From a virus, in IMG/VR virus record IMGVR_UViG_3300030109_001848, positions 2,547 to 33,691 of that record: 31,145 nucleotides of DNA. One strand, 5' to 3'. Shown in pieces: positions 827-30,478 of this stretch. Numbering within the stretch: the stretch's first letter is position 1; every line of letters starts with the position of its first letter. Both the position numbers and the translations under genes were made by a program. The notes under the pieces are model-generated. The model was not told the origin of the DNA. It made no database searches and saw only the letters and a program-made list of their open reading frames with translations.

Positions 827-1765
827 TTATCCTTGGAAGGCTTTATACGCACCTAATCCAGCAATACCTAAACCAGCTAAAGTTTGAAACGGACTAGGTG
901 TAGGAGTTACTGTACGTGAAGATACAGGAGTAGAGCCTTGCAGTCCTCTAACCATATCCGAATAAAATTGTAGTTGTTTGTACGGATACTCTTGCTGACG
1001 TACAAAATCTTGATACTGCATATCCATTAATCGTTGCCGATCTGCTTGGCGAAGTGTACCTGCTCTTTCTAAAGATTTTAATCTCTGCAACTCCGCACTT
1101 TGCGCTGTTGTGCCTAATTGACCTAATGTTTGAGCTCCAGACAAACCTAACCGTGCAGCTTGTTGTCTTGCCATTCTATCTCTTTCAAACTGTTGTTGAG
1201 CTTGAGAGAAAGCAGCTTGTGATCCTTTAGTTTGTATATCCGATAACCGAGTACCTAAGTCAGAATAAAGTTTACCTTCCATCAGACCGTAACGAGAGCC
1301 TCCAAATGCACCTGCTCTTTGAGCTCTACCTGCTAAATCAGTTCTCATTTTCTCAGCATCGGATCGGGCTTGTCTTTTAGCTATATCAGTAACAGATTGC
1401 TGGTAAGGAGACATATACTGAGCCGCTTGTTCCGCACCAAATTGCCCCGGTTGTGTTCCCATCTGAGTAGCTTGTAGCGCAGCTAGTCCAGCGGCTGGGA
1501 AGTAAGGAGATGTTTGTAAATTTTCATACCCTGATAAAGCTCTTTGCTGTGCAGGAGCCATACCTGCTAGTCGTTCCTGACCATACGGAGTGTATTGTGC
1601 TTGGCTTAATCCTTCAGCCCTTTGTGCAATATCTTCAGCATAGGGGACTAGAGTTTCAGGTATCGTAGTTTGGTAGCTAGTTTGGCTACCTCCACTATCA
1701 CTACCACCATAAAAAGTAAAAAAATCTATCCAGTACTTAGGATTAATTAAGTTATATAGCTTCAT
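827..1765 (-). CDS. Putative tail or internal virion protein, Gln/Ala-rich
   Basis: The protein has 312 aa. The first 30 residues are aromatic-rich, and residues 40-270 are a long Gln/Ala/Arg-rich helical region with repeated short motifs (AQQRALSGYENL, QARSDAEKMR, QQQFERDRMARQQAARLG). The C-terminus is Gly/Pro-rich and hydrophobic (LAGLGIAGLGAYKAF). This pattern is common in internal or tail-associated proteins of marine phages. No catalytic domain is visible. The start overlaps the end of the upstream GNAT-like gene by 14 bases, as expected for one tail operon. The function is inferred from context only. Confidence 0.7.
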   Translation of the reverse strand: MKLYNLINPKYWIDFFTFYGGSDSGGSQTSYQTTIPETLVPYAEDIAQRAEGLSQAQYTPYGQERLAGMAPAQQRALSGYENLQTSPYFPAAGLAALQATQMGTQPGQFGAEQAAQYMSPYQQSVTDIAKRQARSDAEKMRTDLAGRAQRAGAFGGSRYGLMEGKLYSDLGTRLSDIQTKGSQAAFSQAQQQFERDRMARQQAARLGLSGAQTLGQLGTTAQSAELQRLKSLERAGTLRQADRQRLMDMQYQDFVRQQEYPYKQLQFYSDMVRGLQGSTPVSSRTVTPTPSPFQTLAGLGIAGLGAYKAFQG

Positions 1766-2180: not shown

Positions 2181-3946
2181 TACGCTGGCATAAACTGTTC
2201 AGCTTCTATTTCTGGAGGCTGAGTCTTTTTACCTGTTCGTGCCATACGCACTCGATCCATCATTTCATACAATTGACTAGCCCCAGCATTACTAGAGCCA
2301 TTACCTAGTCCTGCAACTACATCAGCAGGTACTATAAATTCATCCTTGGATAGGGCCACTTCTTGTTCGCCCTCTATATCACCAAATACTTGATCTTCCA
2401 TACCATCCCCTCTACCGTCTACTTGCCCTTCGGTTTGAGGTAAAGAAGTAATACCACCCTCTTGCATCCCTATTGGTCGCCCAAACTCACCTCCTCTACT
2501 ACCCTCAGTTTGTTCTACTTGAGGTTGATAATCTGAAAACCTAGACCTTTCTGGTCTGTACCTTGTAAGGATGCCTTTACTTGTTAAATCCTGCATTTCT
2601 TTACGAGATAAATTTTTAGTAGGAAATAATTTATAAGTTGTGTCGCCTCTAACACCGGGAGCAATATTAGGAGTATTAGCTGACCACATAAAACCTTCGG
2701 GAGCTCTACGCTCTCGTATATCGCTTAGTAATTCTGAATCAGAAACTTCTAATTTTCTTTCTGGGGGAGGGGTAAAATACGTCCCTTCCACACTACTTAT
2801 AGGAGTCATGCCTCCACCCATAGGAGCCATAGGAGCCGTAGGAGTAGTGTAATTACCCGCTGGCATTGTAGCTGCCATAGGAGGTAAAGAAGTATCAGCC
2901 CCGTAACTTGCTATAAGAGGTGCATAATATCCTAACCCCATATCTTCGGGAGTATCTTCTACAGGAGCTGTAGCATTAACTGCGCCTCCCTCTTGAAAAT
3001 ATCTATACTCTCTAGAACCATACCCACCATCAGGATAACTAACATTCCTTTGATAAGGTTTAGTCATAGCCACCATTCTACGTCTTCTTTTTTCTTCTTC
3101 TTCTTCTTCTGAAGGAAGCATAGCTTGACCTGCATATGTAGACCCTGCCATAAGTGCAGTATCTTTAAGATTAGTAGGAGCCATGTTTTTTAAAAATCCA
3201 GATATTCCACCACTAGTCGAGGAACCATCATCAAAAGTTCCGTCTTTAAATTCTGGATATTTTCTATCAAATTCAGCCATAAGAGCATCACTTCTAGGAG
3301 TCACGCCTCCACTCATAGAAGTCGTAGGAGTAGTAATATTAGAAACAGAAGAAGCATCAGCAAGAGGATTAGCCACTGCGTCCTTCCCAAATAAGTTACT
3401 TATAGTTCTATCATTAGGATTAGTAAGATCAGGTGCAGCATTACTACCTGTTACTAGCCCCTCCGTTTGATTTACCTCATCAATCCCCGGCTGTGCTCCT
3501 ACACCCATTAACTTAGCACCTGCTCCATAAACTAAACCACTGGTTAGTCCCGCATTAAGAGCATCTGAAGTATCCGCACCTCTCATTTTAGCTAACGCAG
3601 CACTAGTAAGTCCTTGGAACAAAGACTTTTGAACTAATGGGTTGCTAAAAATTCCCCCTGCTGCCCCTGCCCCTGCCCCTGCCCCTGCCCCTGCTGTTGC
3701 TGTTGCTGTTCCTAAACCTCCTGTAGCAGCACCTAAAGCCAAAGGAATAGCAATAGGAGCAATCCTATCGAATAACTTAGTAAAGCTAAATGCTTCTGGT
3801 AAACCTGTTTCAGGGTTAATAGTCATTTGCCCCGGAGCTAAAGAAGCTAATCCAGCTACTTCTTGTGGGTTCATGTGAACGAGCATGGAGTCCCCATACC
3901 GTCCTTTACTTGCTAATCCTTGCGCTGTTTGCGAAGTTCTATTCAT
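2180..3946 (-). CDS. Low-complexity minor virion protein with GGxVxGxGxGxxD-type C-terminal motif
   Basis: The protein has 588 aa. The N-terminus carries a conserved-looking block (LVHMNPQEVAGLASL, then MTINPETGLPEAF). A Gly/Ala-rich hydrophobic stretch near residues 67-100 contains Ala-Gly dipeptide repeats, followed by Pro/Thr/Met-rich disordered sequence and a highly charged run of Glu and Arg near 280-290. The C-terminal 100 residues have the widespread phage pattern in which a Gly-Gly-x-Val-x-Gly-type string leads into SKDEFIVPADVVAGLGNG and a final helix. From memory, this plan is common in marine phage tail or internal proteins. It contains no recognisable enzyme. It starts 1 base from the 95-aa gene stop. 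Confidence 0.7.
   Translation of the reverse strand: MNRTSQTAQGLASKGRYGDSMLVHMNPQEVAGLASLAPGQMTINPETGLPEAFSFTKLFDRIAPIAIPLALGAATGGLGTATATAGAGAGAGAGAAGGIFSNPLVQKSLFQGLTSAALAKMRGADTSDALNAGLTSGLVYGAGAKLMGVGAQPGIDEVNQTEGLVTGSNAAPDLTNPNDRTISNLFGKDAVANPLADASSVSNITTPTTSMSGGVTPRSDALMAEFDRKYPEFKDGTFDDGSSTSGGISGFLKNMAPTNLKDTALMAGSTYAGQAMLPSEEEEEEKRRRRMVAMTKPYQRNVSYPDGGYGSREYRYFQEGGAVNATAPVEDTPEDMGLGYYAPLIASYGADTSLPPMAATMPAGNYTTPTAPMAPMGGGMTPISSVEGTYFTPPPERKLEVSDSELLSDIRERRAPEGFMWSANTPNIAPGVRGDTTYKLFPTKNLSRKEMQDLTSKGILTRYRPERSRFSDYQPQVEQTEGSRGGEFGRPIGMQEGGITSLPQTEGQVDGRGDGMEDQVFGDIEGEQEVALSKDEFIVPADVVAGLGNGSSNAGASQLYEMMDRVRMARTGKKTQPPEIEAEQFMPA
3657..3712 (-). repeat. Hexanucleotide microsatellite inside a coding region
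   Basis: About five copies of CCCTGC are followed by about three of TGTTGC (plus-strand reading). They encode an Ala-Gly and then Ala-Thr dipeptide run in the 588-aa protein. The units are in frame, so copy-number changes by slippage would add or remove two residues without a frameshift. Confidence 0.85.
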
Positions 3947-4233
3947 TATGTCGCTACCTTCAAAGTGCCGCTATCATTGTAAACGGTTCCTACTGCTAGA
4001 CCCGATGCCGAAGTTGGTAAACTACTAAGTATTATATGTGTTTTTAGTCCTGATGTGTTAAATTCTGCATCGACAACTACCCCACCACCATTGTCTAATA
4101 TCTGTAGTCTTGCAGTTTGGAATATTTCTGGGGTTTCGTACTGAGAAAAGAACAATCTAAGTACACGATTAAGCTCGTCCAAATACCTTCGTTCGTATGC
4201 TACGGGTGGTGTAGGTAATATCGGTATCGCCAT
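3946..4233 (-). CDS. Conserved hypothetical virion-associated protein, 95 aa
   Basis: The N-terminus is a Pro-rich leader followed by an aromatic helix (YLDELNRVLRLFFSQ, near residues 17-31). The C-terminus is a short Gly-rich beta region (LPTSASGLAVGTVYNDSGT). From memory, small proteins with a VLRLFF helix and a LPTSATGL-type end occur next to the large gp10-like tail protein in many marine phages. The stop and start codons meet those of both neighbours within one base, so it is translated as part of the same operon. No function is known to me. Confidence 0.65.
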   Translation of the reverse strand: MAIPILPTPPVAYERRYLDELNRVLRLFFSQYETPEIFQTARLQILDNGGGVVVDAEFNTSGLKTHIILSSLPTSASGLAVGTVYNDSGTLKVAT

Positions 4234-21790: not shown

Positions 21791-22189
21791 CTAATTAGCA
21801 CGTGAAAATCCACGTGGGTCTGCAACAACGCCTTCTATGCTGTCATCGTTCAACATACGAAACTCCTCTCCATCCACAAACATACGTGTGCCAGAATAAG
21901 TTCGCATAACTACAAAATCACCTTCTTTACACCAAGCCCCTGAAGGAAACTTATCTTTATCCACATAAGCATCGGGGCCAAGAGCCATAACAAACCCAAT
22001 ATTTGCGGCTGTAGACTCTTTTTCTATTACGCTGTCCGGTTTTATGATCCCCCCTTCAGTCCTTTCCTCTATATTAGGAAGGGCTACTAGTATTTTATAT
22101 CCTGAAGGTTTAGGGAGCCTTAAAGACTTATCTTTATAAGACTCTACTTTTTCTATCGTTTTATCTACATCAACTGCACTTATAGACAT
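21791..22189 (-). CDS. GroES-like co-chaperonin
   Basis: A start at 22189 (MSISAVDVDK, 132 aa) is chosen over 22219 because the upstream codons overlap the preceding gene and its stop, and GAGG lies about 6 bases before the ATG. The core PSGYKILVALPNIEERTEGGIIKPD has the Cpn10 form, with the mobile loop ending GGII as in the GGIVL of GroES, and EGDFVVMRTYSGTRMFVDGEEFRMLNDDSIEGVV matches the C-terminal strands. Phage co-chaperonins such as T4 gp31 adapt host GroEL for capsid folding. It is encoded just before the scaffold and capsid, which fits that role. Confidence 0.85.
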   Translation of the reverse strand: MSISAVDVDKTIEKVESYKDKSLRLPKPSGYKILVALPNIEERTEGGIIKPDSVIEKESTAANIGFVMALGPDAYVDKDKFPSGAWCKEGDFVVMRTYSGTRMFVDGEEFRMLNDDSIEGVVADPRGFSRAN

Positions 22190-22190
22190 A

Positions 22191-22382
22191 TTAATCCTCT
22201 TCTTTTTTGGCAGCATCAACTGTGTCTAAGAAAGCCCGTTCAGCTAAAGCCAAGCCTTCTATTACCCCCACCAGATGCCGATAGTGGGGAAAATCCGTTG
22301 CGCCTCCGGTAGATACCGTGTCAGCGTAATCATTCATTAATATACGTATTCTGTCTCTAAATAAATCCTCAAAACTATTCAT
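22191..22382 (-). CDS. Small conserved helical protein, 63 aa
   Basis: The start at 22382 (MNSFEDLFRDRIRILMNDYA) has AGGAGA about 5 bases upstream and is preferred over a 33-codon extension that overlaps the previous gene. The end (HLVGVIEGLALAERAFLDTV) has a pattern I recall in short phage proteins (CGVIxGLALAExxFLDL). It is all helical and acidic. It ends 1 base before the co-chaperonin start. The function is unknown. Confidence 0.65.
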   Translation of the reverse strand: MNSFEDLFRDRIRILMNDYADTVSTGGATDFPHYRHLVGVIEGLALAERAFLDTVDAAKKEED

Positions 22383-26814: not shown

Positions 26815-27470
26815 TACTCTATATCCTTAGACAATAACAACCCTTTCTGCATCTCATTCCAGTTTTTAACTTCCTCGTCTAACTCTAACTTTTTGTCCTT
26901 TGAGTCGGGTACTTTTACTTCCTCTACATCTTCAACATCGTTAACCCACTCTCCTTCTAGTATGGTGTCCAGACGTTGCTGTATTTTTTTCTCTAATTCT
27001 TCTGTGCTCTCATGCTTGATCGTAACTTCTGACTTATCAGTAAATAACTCAGCGGCTTTACCTAATAACTCTAGGGCTCTCATCCTATTACTATCTTTTG
27101 GTGATACAGATTCCTCAAGAAGTTTATTAACTACATACACCCGAAGCTGTGCTTTTTCTTGAACGACTTCTTTATCGTACTCATCTAACAGTGCGGCTAA
27201 ATGAAGGGCTGACCCATTTGTTTTTATTGTATCTTGCGTAACTTTTCGTTTAGAAGGCTTCTCTTCTTGCACAACCTCTTGGAAAGTCTCCCTAGCATTT
27301 TCTTTATCTTCCTCGGTAGGTTGTATATCTACACCCATATTTTTTAGAGCTACTGCTGTGTTACAAGCAATTTTTGCTCTATCTAACGCTTCTAGTTTCG
27401 CCCCGACAAAATCGGCATCGGGTCTTAAATCTTCAGGAAAAGGTATACCTTCTTCGTAATTAATACTCAC
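26814..27470 (-). CDS. Terminase small subunit
   Basis: The protein has 218 aa. It has the typical composition of TerS proteins: helical N-terminus (PDADFVGAKLEALDRAKIACN), a central oligomerisation region (QLRVYVVNKLLEESVSPKDSNRMRALELLGKAAELFTDK) and an acidic C-terminal tail. The RALELLGK...LFTDK string is a common mark of the small subunit. The start is GTG with AGAGGA 6 bases upstream, and the gene lies directly before TerL with a one-base overlap. It recognises the packaging start site on DNA. Confidence 0.8.
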   Translation of the reverse strand: MSINYEEGIPFPEDLRPDADFVGAKLEALDRAKIACNTAVALKNMGVDIQPTEEDKENARETFQEVVQEEKPSKRKVTQDTIKTNGSALHLAALLDEYDKEVVQEKAQLRVYVVNKLLEESVSPKDSNRMRALELLGKAAELFTDKSEVTIKHESTEELEKKIQQRLDTILEGEWVNDVEDVEEVKVPDSKDKKLELDEEVKNWNEMQKGLLLSKDIE

Positions 27471-27751
27471 TATTTATCCTCTGCTTCTTTGATTGCCCAC
27501 TTAAGATAAACCTCAGCTTTTCGCAAGTCCTCCACCCCATTAGTATTCTTCTTCCCATATCGACTTAAATATTTAAAAATATTACCAATACAATAACCTT
27601 CAAATGCCTTTGAAGATAATTTTGCACGTATAAAATCAATAGTCTCTATGCCACCATCCGTGTAGTGGTCGGGGCGGTTCACTACATCTTTCTGCACTCC
27701 GGGCTTTGAGCTACGTTGCCAATTGGGTACAGTTTTCTCTGCATCATTCAT
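27470..27751 (-). CDS. DUF3310 family protein, 93 aa
   Basis: The core VVNRPDHYTDGGIETIDFIRAKLSSKAFEGYCIGNIFKYLSRYGKKN followed by GVEDLRKAEVYLKWAI matches the DUF3310 pattern (NxPxHYxxGGIExIDxI...GNxxKYLxRxxxKNGxEDLxKAxxYL), often linked to nucleotide-kinase-like phage proteins. The start at 27751 (MNDAEK) is chosen over 27856, as the upstream extension is low-complexity and covers the G-rich tract. No Shine-Dalgarno is visible. It is the first gene of the leftward operon, next to the promoter candidate. Confidence 0.82.
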   Translation of the reverse strand: MNDAEKTVPNWQRSSKPGVQKDVVNRPDHYTDGGIETIDFIRAKLSSKAFEGYCIGNIFKYLSRYGKKNTNGVEDLRKAEVYLKWAIKEAEDK

Positions 27752-27760
27752 ATCGTAAGA

Positions 27761-27789
27761 ATAATACCAAATAAAATCAATTACGTAAA
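27761..27789 (-). promoter_or_regulatory. Candidate sigma70-like promoter of the leftward late operon
   Basis: On the minus strand TTTACG (27789-27784) and TATTAT (27766-27761) are 17 bases apart, placing the transcript start within a few bases of the ATG at 27751, so the mRNA would be almost leaderless. A second pair, TTGATT and TACGAT, lies in the same stretch. The position fits the start of a 27-kb operon, but the match to consensus is partial and a phage-specific signal may be used instead. Confidence 0.35.
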
Positions 27790-27795
27790 ATATAT

Positions 27796-27838
27796 GGGGG
27801 GTGGGGGTAGGGGAGGTAAAAAATAAGTGACGGGGGGG
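27796..27838 (+). other. G-rich tract 1, G-quadruplex potential
   Basis: The plus strand reads GGGGGGTGGGGGTAGGGG, then AGG, an AT-rich gap and a run of seven G. It can supply four G-runs of three or more if the last run is included. It stands out sharply in an AT-rich surrounding and lies upstream of the terminase module and of the covarying repeats. Confidence 0.7.
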
Positions 27839-27999
27839 TTTTCTGGGAAACGACATTAGCGGAGAACAAAACTATTTGGGTAACATTTTTTTATGTTCTT
27901 TTTGGGAAGCTCTAAATTTATTTAATTTCAATAGCTTATAGAGGTTTCATTTTTTTTCTCGATCTACGTGCCACATATGCCACATATGTAGAAGTACCT
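27839..27999. other. AT-rich non-coding spacer
   Basis: No convincing gene, terminator or strong promoter is seen in this 160-base stretch. It has T-rich runs and, near the right end, the direct repeat CCACATATG twice (27971-27989), whose core is a CATATG palindrome. It separates the G-rich tract from repeat A. Confidence 0.55.
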
Positions 28000-28119
28000 T
28001 TGTAATATACGTACACCACAATATGAGATAAACATGAGTGTTCCAAGTTTATATACAAGTTGGAACAACGGAAAGCCCCTGTACAAAGGCATCTTCAAGG
28101 TTTTGTTCCAAGTTGTCTA
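28000..28119 (+). repeat. Direct repeat A with triple 7-base word GTTCCAA/TTGGAAC/GTTCCAA
   Basis: This 120-base unit matches repeat B at the same offset (151 bases). The three segments are at 28040-28046 (GTTCCAA), 28060-28066 (TTGGAAC) and 28105-28111 (GTTCCAA). Segment 1 can pair with 2 (8 bp) or 2 with 3 (9 bp), but not both. The upstream TTGTAA and TATGAG, 16 bases apart, look like a plus-strand promoter whose transcript would start near 28034. A further 10-bp hairpin (28110-28119 with 28126-28135) follows. A 35-codon frame (28034-28141) lies here without a Shine-Dalgarno sequence; its coding status is doubtful. Confidence 0.85.
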
Positions 28120-28135
28120 TCCGGTTAGGCAACTT
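28110..28135 (+). promoter_or_regulatory. Hairpin overlapping the end of repeat A
   Basis: AAGTTGTCTA (28110-28119) pairs with TAGGCAACTT (28126-28135, its first base T at 28126) over 10 bp with one U-G pair and a six-base loop TCCGGT. It shares two bases with segment 3 of repeat A, so it competes with the 2:3 helix. No T-tract follows, so it is not a plain intrinsic terminator. Repeat B has no equivalent. Confidence 0.6.
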
Positions 28136-28150
28136 ACTTGAGGAATATTC

Positions 28151-28270
28151 TTGTAATATACGTACACCACAATATGAAATAAACATGAGTGTACCGAATG
28201 TTGATACAAATCGGTACAACGGAAAGCCTCTGTACAAAGGCATCTTCGGGGTTTTGTACCGAATTACCGT
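28151..28270 (+). repeat. Direct repeat B with triple 7-base word GTACCGA/TCGGTAC/GTACCGA
   Basis: The three segments are at 28191-28197, 28211-28217 and 28256-28262. Compared with repeat A each word differs at two positions, and in all three segments the change keeps pairing intact. The first two changes in the 30-codon frame (28185-28277) are synonymous (GTT/GTA and CCA/CCG), while the other segments change amino acids, so pairing rather than peptide sequence seems to be conserved. TTGTAA and TATGAA, 16 bases apart, again form a promoter-like pair upstream. Confidence 0.85.
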
Positions 28271-28344
28271 GTTTTGACCTAACTTGAAAAAATTATAAAT
28301 TATTCGAGTAAATTAATGTGTATATAAGTAGTCGCCTCGCAGAG

Positions 28345-28377
28345 GCAAAAAGGGGGGTTGGGGGTGGGTGGGGGGGA
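28345..28377 (+). other. G-rich tract 2, canonical G-quadruplex motif
   Basis: The plus strand has runs of 6, 5, 3 and 7 G separated by TT, T and T, which meets the usual four-run short-loop definition of a stable G-quadruplex. A small hairpin GCCTC-GCA-GAGGC lies just before it (28333-28346). It sits between repeat B and the early promoter. Confidence 0.8.
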
Positions 28378-28382
28378 AATAG

Positions 28383-28394: not shown

Positions 28395-28416
28395 TAGTTG
28401 CGTAGCTTATTAGTTT

Positions 28417-28431
28417 TGGGGTATTACCCCA
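28417..28431. promoter_or_regulatory. Operator-like palindrome TGGGGTATTACCCCA, copy 1
   Basis: The arms TGGGGTA and TACCCCA are perfect with one central base. It lies 34 bases before the candidate -35 of the early promoter. The identical 15-mer recurs at 29911 and 30434. Confidence 0.75.
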
Positions 28432-28464
28432 GAATAATTAATTGTAATTAGTTAAAATTAATTG

Positions 28465-28494
28465 TTGCTTTTTGGTGTTCATTGATGTTATACT
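28465..28494 (+). promoter_or_regulatory. Candidate early promoter
   Basis: TTGCTT (28465-28470) and TATACT (28489-28494) are 18 bases apart, and transcription would start near 28501, about 30 bases before the 67-aa gene. An imperfect CTAC-GTAT-GTAG repeat follows the -10. Confidence 0.5.
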
Positions 28495-28531
28495 ACGTAT
28501 GTAGCATAAACAATTTCAGAAAGGAATAAAT

Positions 28532-28735
28532 ATGAGGGCTAAAAAAATCGGGACAGGATGGTATGAGTACAAGGGCTATCGCATGATGTACATTCCAAAA
28601 GAGGAGACCAATTATGGTCGAGGGCATTGGCTTGTCGGAGGAGCAGACAGCATAGAATGCCATGATGCAACGCAAACCAAATGGGAAGCGATGATTTTGA
28701 TCGACCAATACGAGAAGCAAGGCATCGCACCGTAA
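28532..28735 (+). CDS. Small early protein, 67 aa
   Basis: AAGGA lies 6-7 bases before the ATG. The protein is rich in Tyr/Trp/Gly (GTGWYEYKGYRMMYIPKEE) and contains a short beta-like domain, then a helix (TKWEAMILIDQYEKQG). It resembles small phage proteins of unknown function with a beta-sheet plus helix. It is the first plus-strand gene after the control region. Frames on the opposite strand have no context. Confidence 0.65.
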   Translation: MRAKKIGTGWYEYKGYRMMYIPKEETNYGRGHWLVGGADSIECHDATQTKWEAMILIDQYEKQGIAP

Positions 28736-29041: not shown

Positions 29042-29773
29042 ATGACAACAAATCATCCGGATACATTTAATCCAAGCACCGAAATTATCACTCAAAAAGG
29101 CGGTAAACAATCCGTTCCATTATTTGACGGAATGGTAGATGTGCAATATAAACCTGACGAGATTCTAAAGAAAATAAAAAGCGGGGTAACATCTACAAGT
29201 AGATACACATCGGTCATGAACAATATAGCCAACATGTATGTAACCAATACAAAAAATATAGATGAAGTTATAAACAGCGAAAAGATTCTGCATGCGGTTG
29301 ATAAAATGCAGAAGAAACATGAGAAAGCATTACAGAAGAACAGCAAAGCGAAATTACAGCTTAAAGATATTTTTCCATTGTTCGGATTTACTACTACAAC
29401 TATAAGACAGAAAGGGCTAGGTAATTTCAGAAAAGACATTGCGACTCTATGCAAGATTTTAATAGCTGAGGAATATTGTTGGGAAAACGTGCGAGCAGGA
29501 TACGAGTTGATGAGAGAAGAACAGTTAGCCGATTACTCTGCAGGTATTAGAAAGAATCTGCTACCGCTTACTGTTACTATGCAAGGTATAGAGAAAGCAG
29601 TAACCGCATATAGAAAACGTGATGAAATAAAAGAGGATCAATTTGAAGAAGATCAAGAAGAGGAGAACACTCAAATAGTTGATGCTATTCTAGACTTAGG
29701 AAAAGCTAAGAAAAATAAGGACTGGAAACTAGTGGAGAAAGTATTGGAGGCACTAAAAGAAATAGAAAATTAA
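29042..29773 (+). CDS. Early protein of unknown function, 243 aa
   Basis: It starts MTTNHPDTFNPSTEIITQKG and has a mixed Lys/Glu-rich helical body. A region near residues 105-165 (DIFPLFGFTTTTIRQKGLGN, then RKDIATLCKILIAEEYCWEN) might be a small helical DNA-binding or replication-related domain, but I do not recognise a family. The acidic stretch near 196-208 and the Lys-rich C-terminus suggest protein contacts. It is the largest plus-strand gene here, ends before a strong terminator and has an AAAGG ribosome binding site. It could be an early regulator; unproven. Confidence 0.65.
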   Translation: MTTNHPDTFNPSTEIITQKGGKQSVPLFDGMVDVQYKPDEILKKIKSGVTSTSRYTSVMNNIANMYVTNTKNIDEVINSEKILHAVDKMQKKHEKALQKNSKAKLQLKDIFPLFGFTTTTIRQKGLGNFRKDIATLCKILIAEEYCWENVRAGYELMREEQLADYSAGIRKNLLPLTVTMQGIEKAVTAYRKRDEIKEDQFEEDQEEENTQIVDAILDLGKAKKNKDWKLVEKVLEALKEIEN

Positions 29774-29824: not shown

Positions 29825-29841
29825 CGCCTATCTCAGGCGAA

Positions 29842-29980
29842 ACCAGTTCTGTGGAGGGGAAAGAACATATTGTTACGATGAGAGACCAGTTCTGTGGAGG
29901 GGAGAGGTTCTGGGGTATTACCCCAAATATAACAATTTTCAGGACTACATAGCAAAACCAGTTCTGTGGAGGGGAAAGAA
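29842..29980 (+). repeat. Three copies of a 24-base direct repeat
   Basis: The core ACCAGTTCTGTGGAGGGG followed by AAAGAA (copies 1 and 3) or AGAGGT (copy 2) starts at 29842, 29885 and 29957. The distances between starts are 43 and 72 bases. The second operator-like palindrome lies between copies 2 and 3. The repeats may be protein-binding sites in the replication or transcription control region; they are unlike a CRISPR array. Confidence 0.88.
29911..29925. promoter_or_regulatory. Operator-like palindrome TGGGGTATTACCCCA, copy 2
   Basis: The same perfect 15-base palindrome as at 28417 and 30434. It lies immediately after the second 24-base repeat and about 500 bases before the downstream early promoter. 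Confidence 0.75.
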
Positions 29981-29992
29981 TCCCCCAAAGAG

Positions 29993-30020
29993 CATAAACT
30001 ACCATAAACTTGCATAAACT
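29993..30020 (+). repeat. Three CATAAACT iterons with 10-base period
   Basis: CATAAACT occurs at 29993, 30003 and 30013, exactly one DNA turn apart, as in iterons that bind a replication initiator on one DNA face. They lie directly before the TAACATTAT cluster and the AT-rich tract. Confidence 0.75.
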
Positions 30021-30026
30021 TATGAC

Positions 30027-30320
30027 AATGTTAGGTTGTAACATTATTGCAAGATTGCCTATTCATGCGGTTTTGCAAGGTTTATATATATATATATAAT
30101 ATAATAATGTTAATAATAGTAATAGTATGTATGTAATAATTTTTTTAATGTTTCATATTCTTTTATGTTTTGTTTTTTCTTGCACGTTCGTTTGTCCTTT
30201 CATGCTCAAGTATATCCCCATACCGAAATCCTAACATTATTACGCTTTTTACTTATCATCACTCCCCCAAGATCCGCATAGGTAGGCTTTTATACTAATA
30301 ATGTTACAACCTAACATTAT
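30027..30320. other. Candidate replication origin with TAACATTAT copies and 22-base inverted repeat
   Basis: TAACATTAT occurs at 30039-30047, 30232-30240 and 30312-30320, and its reverse complement at 30104-30112 and 30298-30306. The outer sequences at 30027-30048 and 30297-30318 form a perfect 22-base inverted repeat around a 248-base interior. Inside lie an (AT)n tract (30083-30099) and a very AT-rich stretch, like a DNA-unwinding element. No gene is supported in this interval. Iterons, inverted repeat and AT-rich core together resemble an origin, but no initiator gene is seen in the window. Confidence 0.6.
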
Positions 30321-30365
30321 TTAATTTATTGTATGTTTACCTTTATTGATATTCATAATAGGCGT

Positions 30366-30433: not shown

Positions 30434-30448
30434 TGGGGTATTACCCCA
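30434..30448. promoter_or_regulatory. Operator-like palindrome TGGGGTATTACCCCA, copy 3
   Basis: It lies in the 5' leader about 34 bases after the expected transcription start of the consensus promoter and before the ribosome binding site AAGGAG. The nine bases AGGCGTTTG precede it, and also occur at the -35 of the promoter (30360-30368). Confidence 0.78.
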
Positions 30449-30478
30449 AGATATTTATAAACAGCAAGGAGAAACGAA

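Follow-up and report, generated by a model that had tools for sequence, protein, structure and literature searches.

The window, which is the whole stretch of 31,145 nucleotides analysed here, forms part of a 33.7-kb virus record and belongs to a tailed phage whose head, tail and terminase genes lie on the minus strand. The intergenic region between its leftward DUF3310-terS-terL operon and a group of rightward small genes contains two repeats, units A and B, arranged head to tail in tandem on the same strand (Table 1). The earlier note described them as mostly identical copies spaced by 151 bases, each carrying its own 7-base word three times, and both observations hold: positions 28000-28114 and 28151-28265 are 86% identical over 115 ungapped bases at a spacing of 151, the homology continues with gaps to about 28145 and 28290, and the words of both units were confirmed at the positions listed. 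Once extended, the helix of words 1 and 2 (1:2) comprises 8 bp and that of words 2 and 3 (2:3) comprises 9 bp.

Table 1. Features of the two units and their surroundings, in window coordinates; L002 is the related phage that carries both units.
Feature	Position	Strand	Remarks
Unit A	28000-28150	+	151 bp; direct repeat with 28151-28265; L002 homologue 1412-1562 (-), 22/151 differences
Unit B	28151-28290 (right end approximate)	+	L002 homologue 1261-1411 (-), 10 substitutions and an 11-nt duplication of word 2
Unit A leader, promoter-like TTGTAA-16-TATGAG	28000-28027	+	Contains operator-like imperfect palindrome; hexamers in 4/4 copies; weak consensus match
Unit A word 1, GTTCCAA	28040-28046	+
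Unit A word 2, TTGGAAC	28060-28066	+	Partner is word 1 or word 3
Unit A conserved core between words 2 and 3	28067-28104	+	Only 3 A/B differences; from alignments
Unit A word 3, GTTCCAA	28105-28111	+
Unit A helix P4 span	28094-28142	+	UUCAAG left end, CUUGAG right end; encloses word 3 and 3' hairpin
Unit A 3' end, terminator-like hairpin AGTTGTCTATCCGGTTAGGCAACTT	28111-28136	+	Predicted by folding; without U-tract here
Unit B leader, promoter-like TTGTAA-16-TATGAA	28151-28178	+	Near-identical to unit A leader; diverged from that of L002
Unit B word 1, GTACCGA	28191-28197	+
Unit B word 2, TCGGTAC	28211-28217	+	Partner is word 1 or word 3
Unit B conserved core between words 2 and 3	28218-28255	+	From alignments and A/B differences
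Unit B word 3, GTACCGA	28256-28262	+
Conserved G-rich box left of insert	27797-27850	+	Cos-like or R-loop-like; common to L002, L084, L004, L003, L090, L097 and others
Conserved AT box and second G-rich box right of insert	28283-28378	+	Common to relatives without units

Each unit begins with a leader containing the hexamers TTGTAA-16-TATGAR, which had been read as promoter-like. The separate leader per copy stands, and the hexamers recur in all four known copies as TTGTRA-16-TATRRK, but their sigma-70 match is weaker than claimed: 8 of 12 positions, counted by eye, with 9/12 at best (unit B of L002). In a 9-of-12 promoter scan the unit hexamers were not among the matches, whose number equals chance. 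The rightward genes have a promoter-like sequence of their own at about 28465-28505 (read by eye, absent from the scan scoring) and the leftward operon has one at 27789-27761, so that the units lie upstream of the apparent promoters of both flanking operons. The first rightward ORF starts at 28532, at least about 240 nt beyond the units, with the rightward promoter-like sequence between. Given the weak hexamers and a separate promoter-like site for the genes downstream, we treat transcription of the units, its strand and the two-state behaviour considered below as inferred.

A small protein gene was considered and rejected. Two frames are open, one of 35 and 30 aa from ATG and one of 79 aa from GTG that spans both units; however, the differences between the bodies of unit A here and in L002 are spread over codon positions in both frames with no concentration at third positions, the ATG is lost in unit A of L002, and the frame is shifted in its unit B. 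A 74-75% likeness between the unit core and a 24-nt stretch of the DUF3310 gene was taken as chance.

Several features of the surrounding region were recorded as observations in their own right. The DUF3310 ORF (27470-27856, minus strand) runs through the conserved G-rich box with its first 35 codons; its true start is probably the ATG at 27751, beside a TTTACG-17-TATTAT promoter-like site. The rightward 243-aa protein (29042-29773) has no PHROG match and only a sub-threshold Pfam match, its AlphaFold model is unusable (pLDDT 50), and among the fetched loci only L002 has a homologue, a scan of the collection confirming no others. After the terminator of this gene, ACCAGTTCTGTGGAGGGGAAAGAA occurs three times at 29837-29980 (spacing 43 and 72) and is also present at the end of L002. 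The palindrome GGGGTATTACCCC, operator-like and always intergenic, is found at 28413-28435, 29911-29926 and 30434-30449, and L002 has a similar one, GGGGTAATACCCC. The phage also encodes a Cpn10 (GroES-type co-chaperonin) at 21791-22219 on the minus strand.

Covariation of the words and conservation in a second phage

Units A and B differ at 16 positions, six of which are fully compensated changes within the three words. The claim that the word differences are compensated at all three places, with both 1:2 and 2:3 pairing kept, is therefore correct. Three further differences make up the adjoining eighth position, an unpaired homopurine (G/G/G in A, A/A/A in B) that also covaries; covariation at a position that does not pair argues against one inverted arm being a plain copy of its partner.

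The general pattern of a 7-mer, its reverse complement and the 7-mer again is rare: 20 versions of the window simulated with a first-order Markov model gave 2 matches, or about 0.1 per window. The exact 13- and 38-nt word spacing was found, among approximately 190 loci, nowhere but in the units of this phage and of L002. That six differences on 21 word bases should form two fully compensated triplets has p of about 5e-6, a conditional and post hoc value which assumes that the six are placed randomly on those bases. The 1:2 and 2:3 pairs all form in the four known copies, with two double changes per helix, and moving the partner by 1-3 columns reduces word pairing to 17-56%. Shuffle controls reached the observed covariation score in 13-18 of 500 cases; the units occur in two genomes only and the double changes trace to one divergence between A and B, which gives the covariation analysis low power.

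In the search for the unit in related phages, a pattern scan of IMG/VR identified one relative, L002, that carries both units in identical order with unchanged pairing words. The TerS protein of L002 is 91-92% identical, yet 53% of the shared terS fourfold sites differ. Against this, the body of unit B differs at 3 of 106 positions and that of unit A at 13 of 117, or 8 of 106 within 28038-28143 (about 8-11%), so that the sequence comparison points to constraint on the bodies, unless the phages exchanged the segment recently. The leaders differ from those of L002 at 7-9 of 34 positions; within this genome they show one or two differences from each other, and both are clearly unlike their L002 counterparts. 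They are therefore either homogenised or matched to a phage-specific regulator. In L002, word 2 of unit B is doubled by the 11-nt duplication, and there is also an incomplete third leader (C'), which runs into an intrinsic terminator that is also present in L084.

Relatives found through TerL share the G-rich box to the left and the AT box with the second G-rich box to the right. Between these boxes, L003, L090, L093 and L097 have little or nothing, L004 has a terminator hairpin only, and L084, whose TerS is 91% identical, has a C'-like leader and terminator without units. Judged by this comparison, the units are accessory, an insert placed between two operons that face away from each other. 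The G-rich boxes themselves (27797-27850 and 28352-28378, plus strand), kept in many relatives between divergent operons, are candidates for cos or for R-loop formation.

Wider searches returned no DNA match to the units in phage records, no word pattern in bacterial and archaeal genomes, only L002 plus chance matches for looser unit patterns in IMG/VR, and no further convincing copy with covariance model R1. The distant isolates HTVC027P, DSL-LC04 and 023Pt_psg01 differ in terminase-proximal gene order and have no comparable intergenic region. An Rfam search of the window at gathering scores gave no match, and only chance-level matches appeared at E up to 10. Overall, the words, their covariation, their conservation in a second phage and the lack of coding constraint are established at the level of sequence, and A and B represent a real, probably constrained, non-coding, duplicated element.

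Predicted structure and strand

Alternative-structure folding predicts both pairing states, the 1:2 state being the more stable. The energies for 1:2 and 2:3 (kcal/mol) are -30.6 and -25.9 for unit A and -26.0 and -22.2 for unit B, and in L002 they are -33.0 and -26.7 for unit A and -31.6 and -30.3 for unit B, so that plus-strand folding favours the 1:2 state by 1.3-6.3 kcal/mol. Folding z-scores are modest and alike on both strands (-0.8 to -2.4).

Other evidence distinguishes the strands. Helix P4 (UUCRRG/CUUGAR) is paired in all four copies, and its A/G changes stand opposite U, which points to a plus-strand RNA because the minus strand would have C-A mismatches. Similarly, an A-to-G change closing the 2:3 helix in unit A of L002 is wobble-compatible on the plus strand only. 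The 3' hairpin of unit A has a counterpart in L004 in the same orientation, AGTCG...CGACT followed by a T run, with a compensated T-A to C-G change. Taken together, these wobble-tolerant changes and the matching L004 terminator favour a plus-strand RNA. A further hairpin, GCCTTT/AGRGGC, lies between words 2 and 3 and counts against it: on the minus strand, where it was flagged as terminator-like, it pairs fully in all four copies, while on the plus strand it has C-A mismatches.

The hairpin of unit A is followed here by ACTTGAGG instead of a U-tract, unit B has no such hairpin, and a proper U-tract occurs only in L004, a relative that lacks the words. The switch-like logic originally proposed is supported in that two alternative pairings are kept in a second phage; mutually exclusive helices built from common segments are found in A, B and unit A of L002. 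In unit B of L002, however, the duplicated word 2 allows both helices to coexist, and strict exclusivity is therefore inessential there. The suggestion that separate words avoid cross-talk is only partly upheld, as A/B cross-pairing is disturbed by one wobble and one mismatch but not abolished. RNA dimerisation is predicted to gain 8-12 kcal/mol, with A+B gaining as much as A+A; dimerisation was for this reason rejected as the cause of the distinct words.

A proposed pair of small structured RNAs and the competing readings

We consider the units to be a pair of small structured phage RNAs from an undescribed family with two alternative pairings, a reading to which we give a probability of about one half. 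Under it, A and B would be tandem copies of a non-coding RNA gene on the plus strand, each transcribed from its own leader, with a start near 28030-28036 (A) or 28181-28187 (B) and a length of about 105 nt. The 5' hairpin of words 1 and 2, which belongs to the state with the lower predicted energy, would form earliest as the RNA is made and leave the 3' part free for P4 and, in unit A, for the terminator-like hairpin. Pairing of words 2 and 3 would instead enclose the conserved 38-nt core and disrupt both P4 and the hairpin at the 3' end. Most likely, the winning pairing would set exposure of the core, or termination versus readthrough toward the rightward early genes. Of the original suggestion of a small RNA or leader, the small RNA is retained, with a conserved, non-coding element whose structure is likely on the plus strand; neither unit clearly leads an identified gene, given the promoter-like site downstream.

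Phage HK022 offers a partial parallel: its putL and putR are two similar structured RNAs of about 70 nt downstream of early promoters, and put RNA consists of two stem-loops bound to RNA polymerase at the beta' zinc-binding domain, with a third strand involved in stem I (PMC9378689). By analogy, both cases may be viewed as two similar structured RNA copies in a phage genome with a partly similar architecture; the HK022 copies lie on two separate early promoters, unlike the units here, which are in tandem on one strand and have partner-swapping words. In type III toxin-antitoxin systems, ToxI-like RNAs consist of tandem repeats with the gene of a toxin endoribonuclease downstream, and L002 likewise has tandem RNA-like repeats before a terminator and a gene. 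Here, however, each repeat measures 151 nt and carries a leader of its own, and the protein encoded downstream has no Pfam or PHROG match above threshold.

A serious rival, absent from the earlier note, although on balance we think it unlikely, is that a DNA-binding protein of replication, partition or regulation recognises the words as half-sites, which form an inverted pair with a third site. One protein reading all three words would make them change jointly, and A and B would have two specificities. What makes this rival serious is that the unit A dyad, TGTTCC-N17-GGAACA, has the half-site and spacing (N16-17) of origin-like arrays in L097, L122 and L124, which hold extra half-sites too; a search of 22 records for the dyad pattern returned only those arrays and the unit A copies of this phage and L002. 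An extra half-site in unit B of L002 would also do no harm. The match was noticed post hoc and holds for unit A but not for unit B, whose dyad, TGTACC-N17-GGTACA, has an altered half-site. Furthermore, the TTACACT-type dyad spacer of the relatives is absent from the units, conservation between A and B is highest in the core that separates words 2 and 3 and not in the words themselves, and position 8 and P4 fit a plus-strand RNA better. The units also differ from the arrays in their long conserved core, their leaders and their location in another intergenic region, and the positionally corresponding arrays of this phage (30019-30322) use a different word.

The arrays in the relatives (L097, 3145-3611; L124, about 3300-3800; L122, about 3700-4000) carry TGTTCC/GGAACA at 16-17 nt inverted spacing and are probably origin iterons. 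Several have a further direct copy that generates GTTC-N7/8-GTTC, which we take to resemble the alphaproteobacterial LexA box. In the window, 30019-30345 is an origin-like AT-rich intergenic region with further copies of TAACATT and, on either side, a perfect inverted repeat of 22 bp, AATGTTAGGTTGTAACATTATT (at 30027-30048 and 30297-30318).

Because the words echo the half-sites of these origin arrays, we also entertained, as a distinctly speculative idea, that the duplicated partner-swapping RNA might prime or license phage DNA replication in the manner of RNA II, its transcript entering the G-rich box to form an R-loop. The ColE1 RNA II primer contains alpha, beta and gamma segments, the middle one pairing with either neighbour. 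Both cases involve three short segments with a two-partnered middle one and a G-rich stretch downstream on the same strand; the units differ in being duplicated and much shorter, no RNA I-like antisense promoter was identified, and the G-rich boxes are also present in relatives without units.

Attenuation in the classical sense, acting on a flanking operon, is conceivable but less well supported, and we hold it to be quite improbable. In trp-type attenuators and in riboswitches, alternative helices decide the outcome; here, 1:2 versus 2:3 pairing would set read-through into a downstream gene, either on the plus strand (rightward early genes) or on the minus strand (terS/terL operon, terminator GCCUUUGUACAGAGGC-UUUC). 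The exclusive helices of A, B and unit A of L002, the terminator-like hairpins and the occurrence of the 3' hairpin as a true terminator in L004 are in line with this. However, no U-tract follows the unit A hairpin, U-tracts in the window are poor and none of its terminators is clean. In addition, each flanking operon has its promoter-like sequence beyond the units, no regulated gene directly follows each copy, exclusivity is lost in unit B of L002, and Rfam gave no match.

It is very improbable, in our judgement, that pairing is under no selection and that repeats homogenised by template switching or gene conversion produced the compensated words as a mutational by-product. The near-identical leaders within this genome, unlike those of L002, are a sign of concerted evolution, and word 2 is duplicated in unit B of L002. 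Nevertheless, position 8, although it covaries, stays mismatched (G-G to A-A) where templated inverted copying would yield a pair, the A and B words are still distinct in both phages despite the homogenised leaders, and divergence in the unit bodies is far below that at fourfold sites. It is hardly credible that the units are recognised by the terminase or serve as cos sites, as the proximity of terS/terL and the conserved G-rich box might suggest, and a TerS (cosB-type) site is disfavoured, because L084 has the G-rich box and a 91% identical TerS but no units; L004, L003 and L090 have none either.

If the units are RNAs, as we favour, they would constitute an undescribed structured phage RNA whose copies keep separate words in two well-diverged phages, and would let one ask, in a natural setting, why switch-like RNAs in tandem need orthogonality. 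If they act as DNA, the half-site and spacing of the relatives' origin arrays would have been redeployed beside the packaging genes, with all half-sites changed in match.
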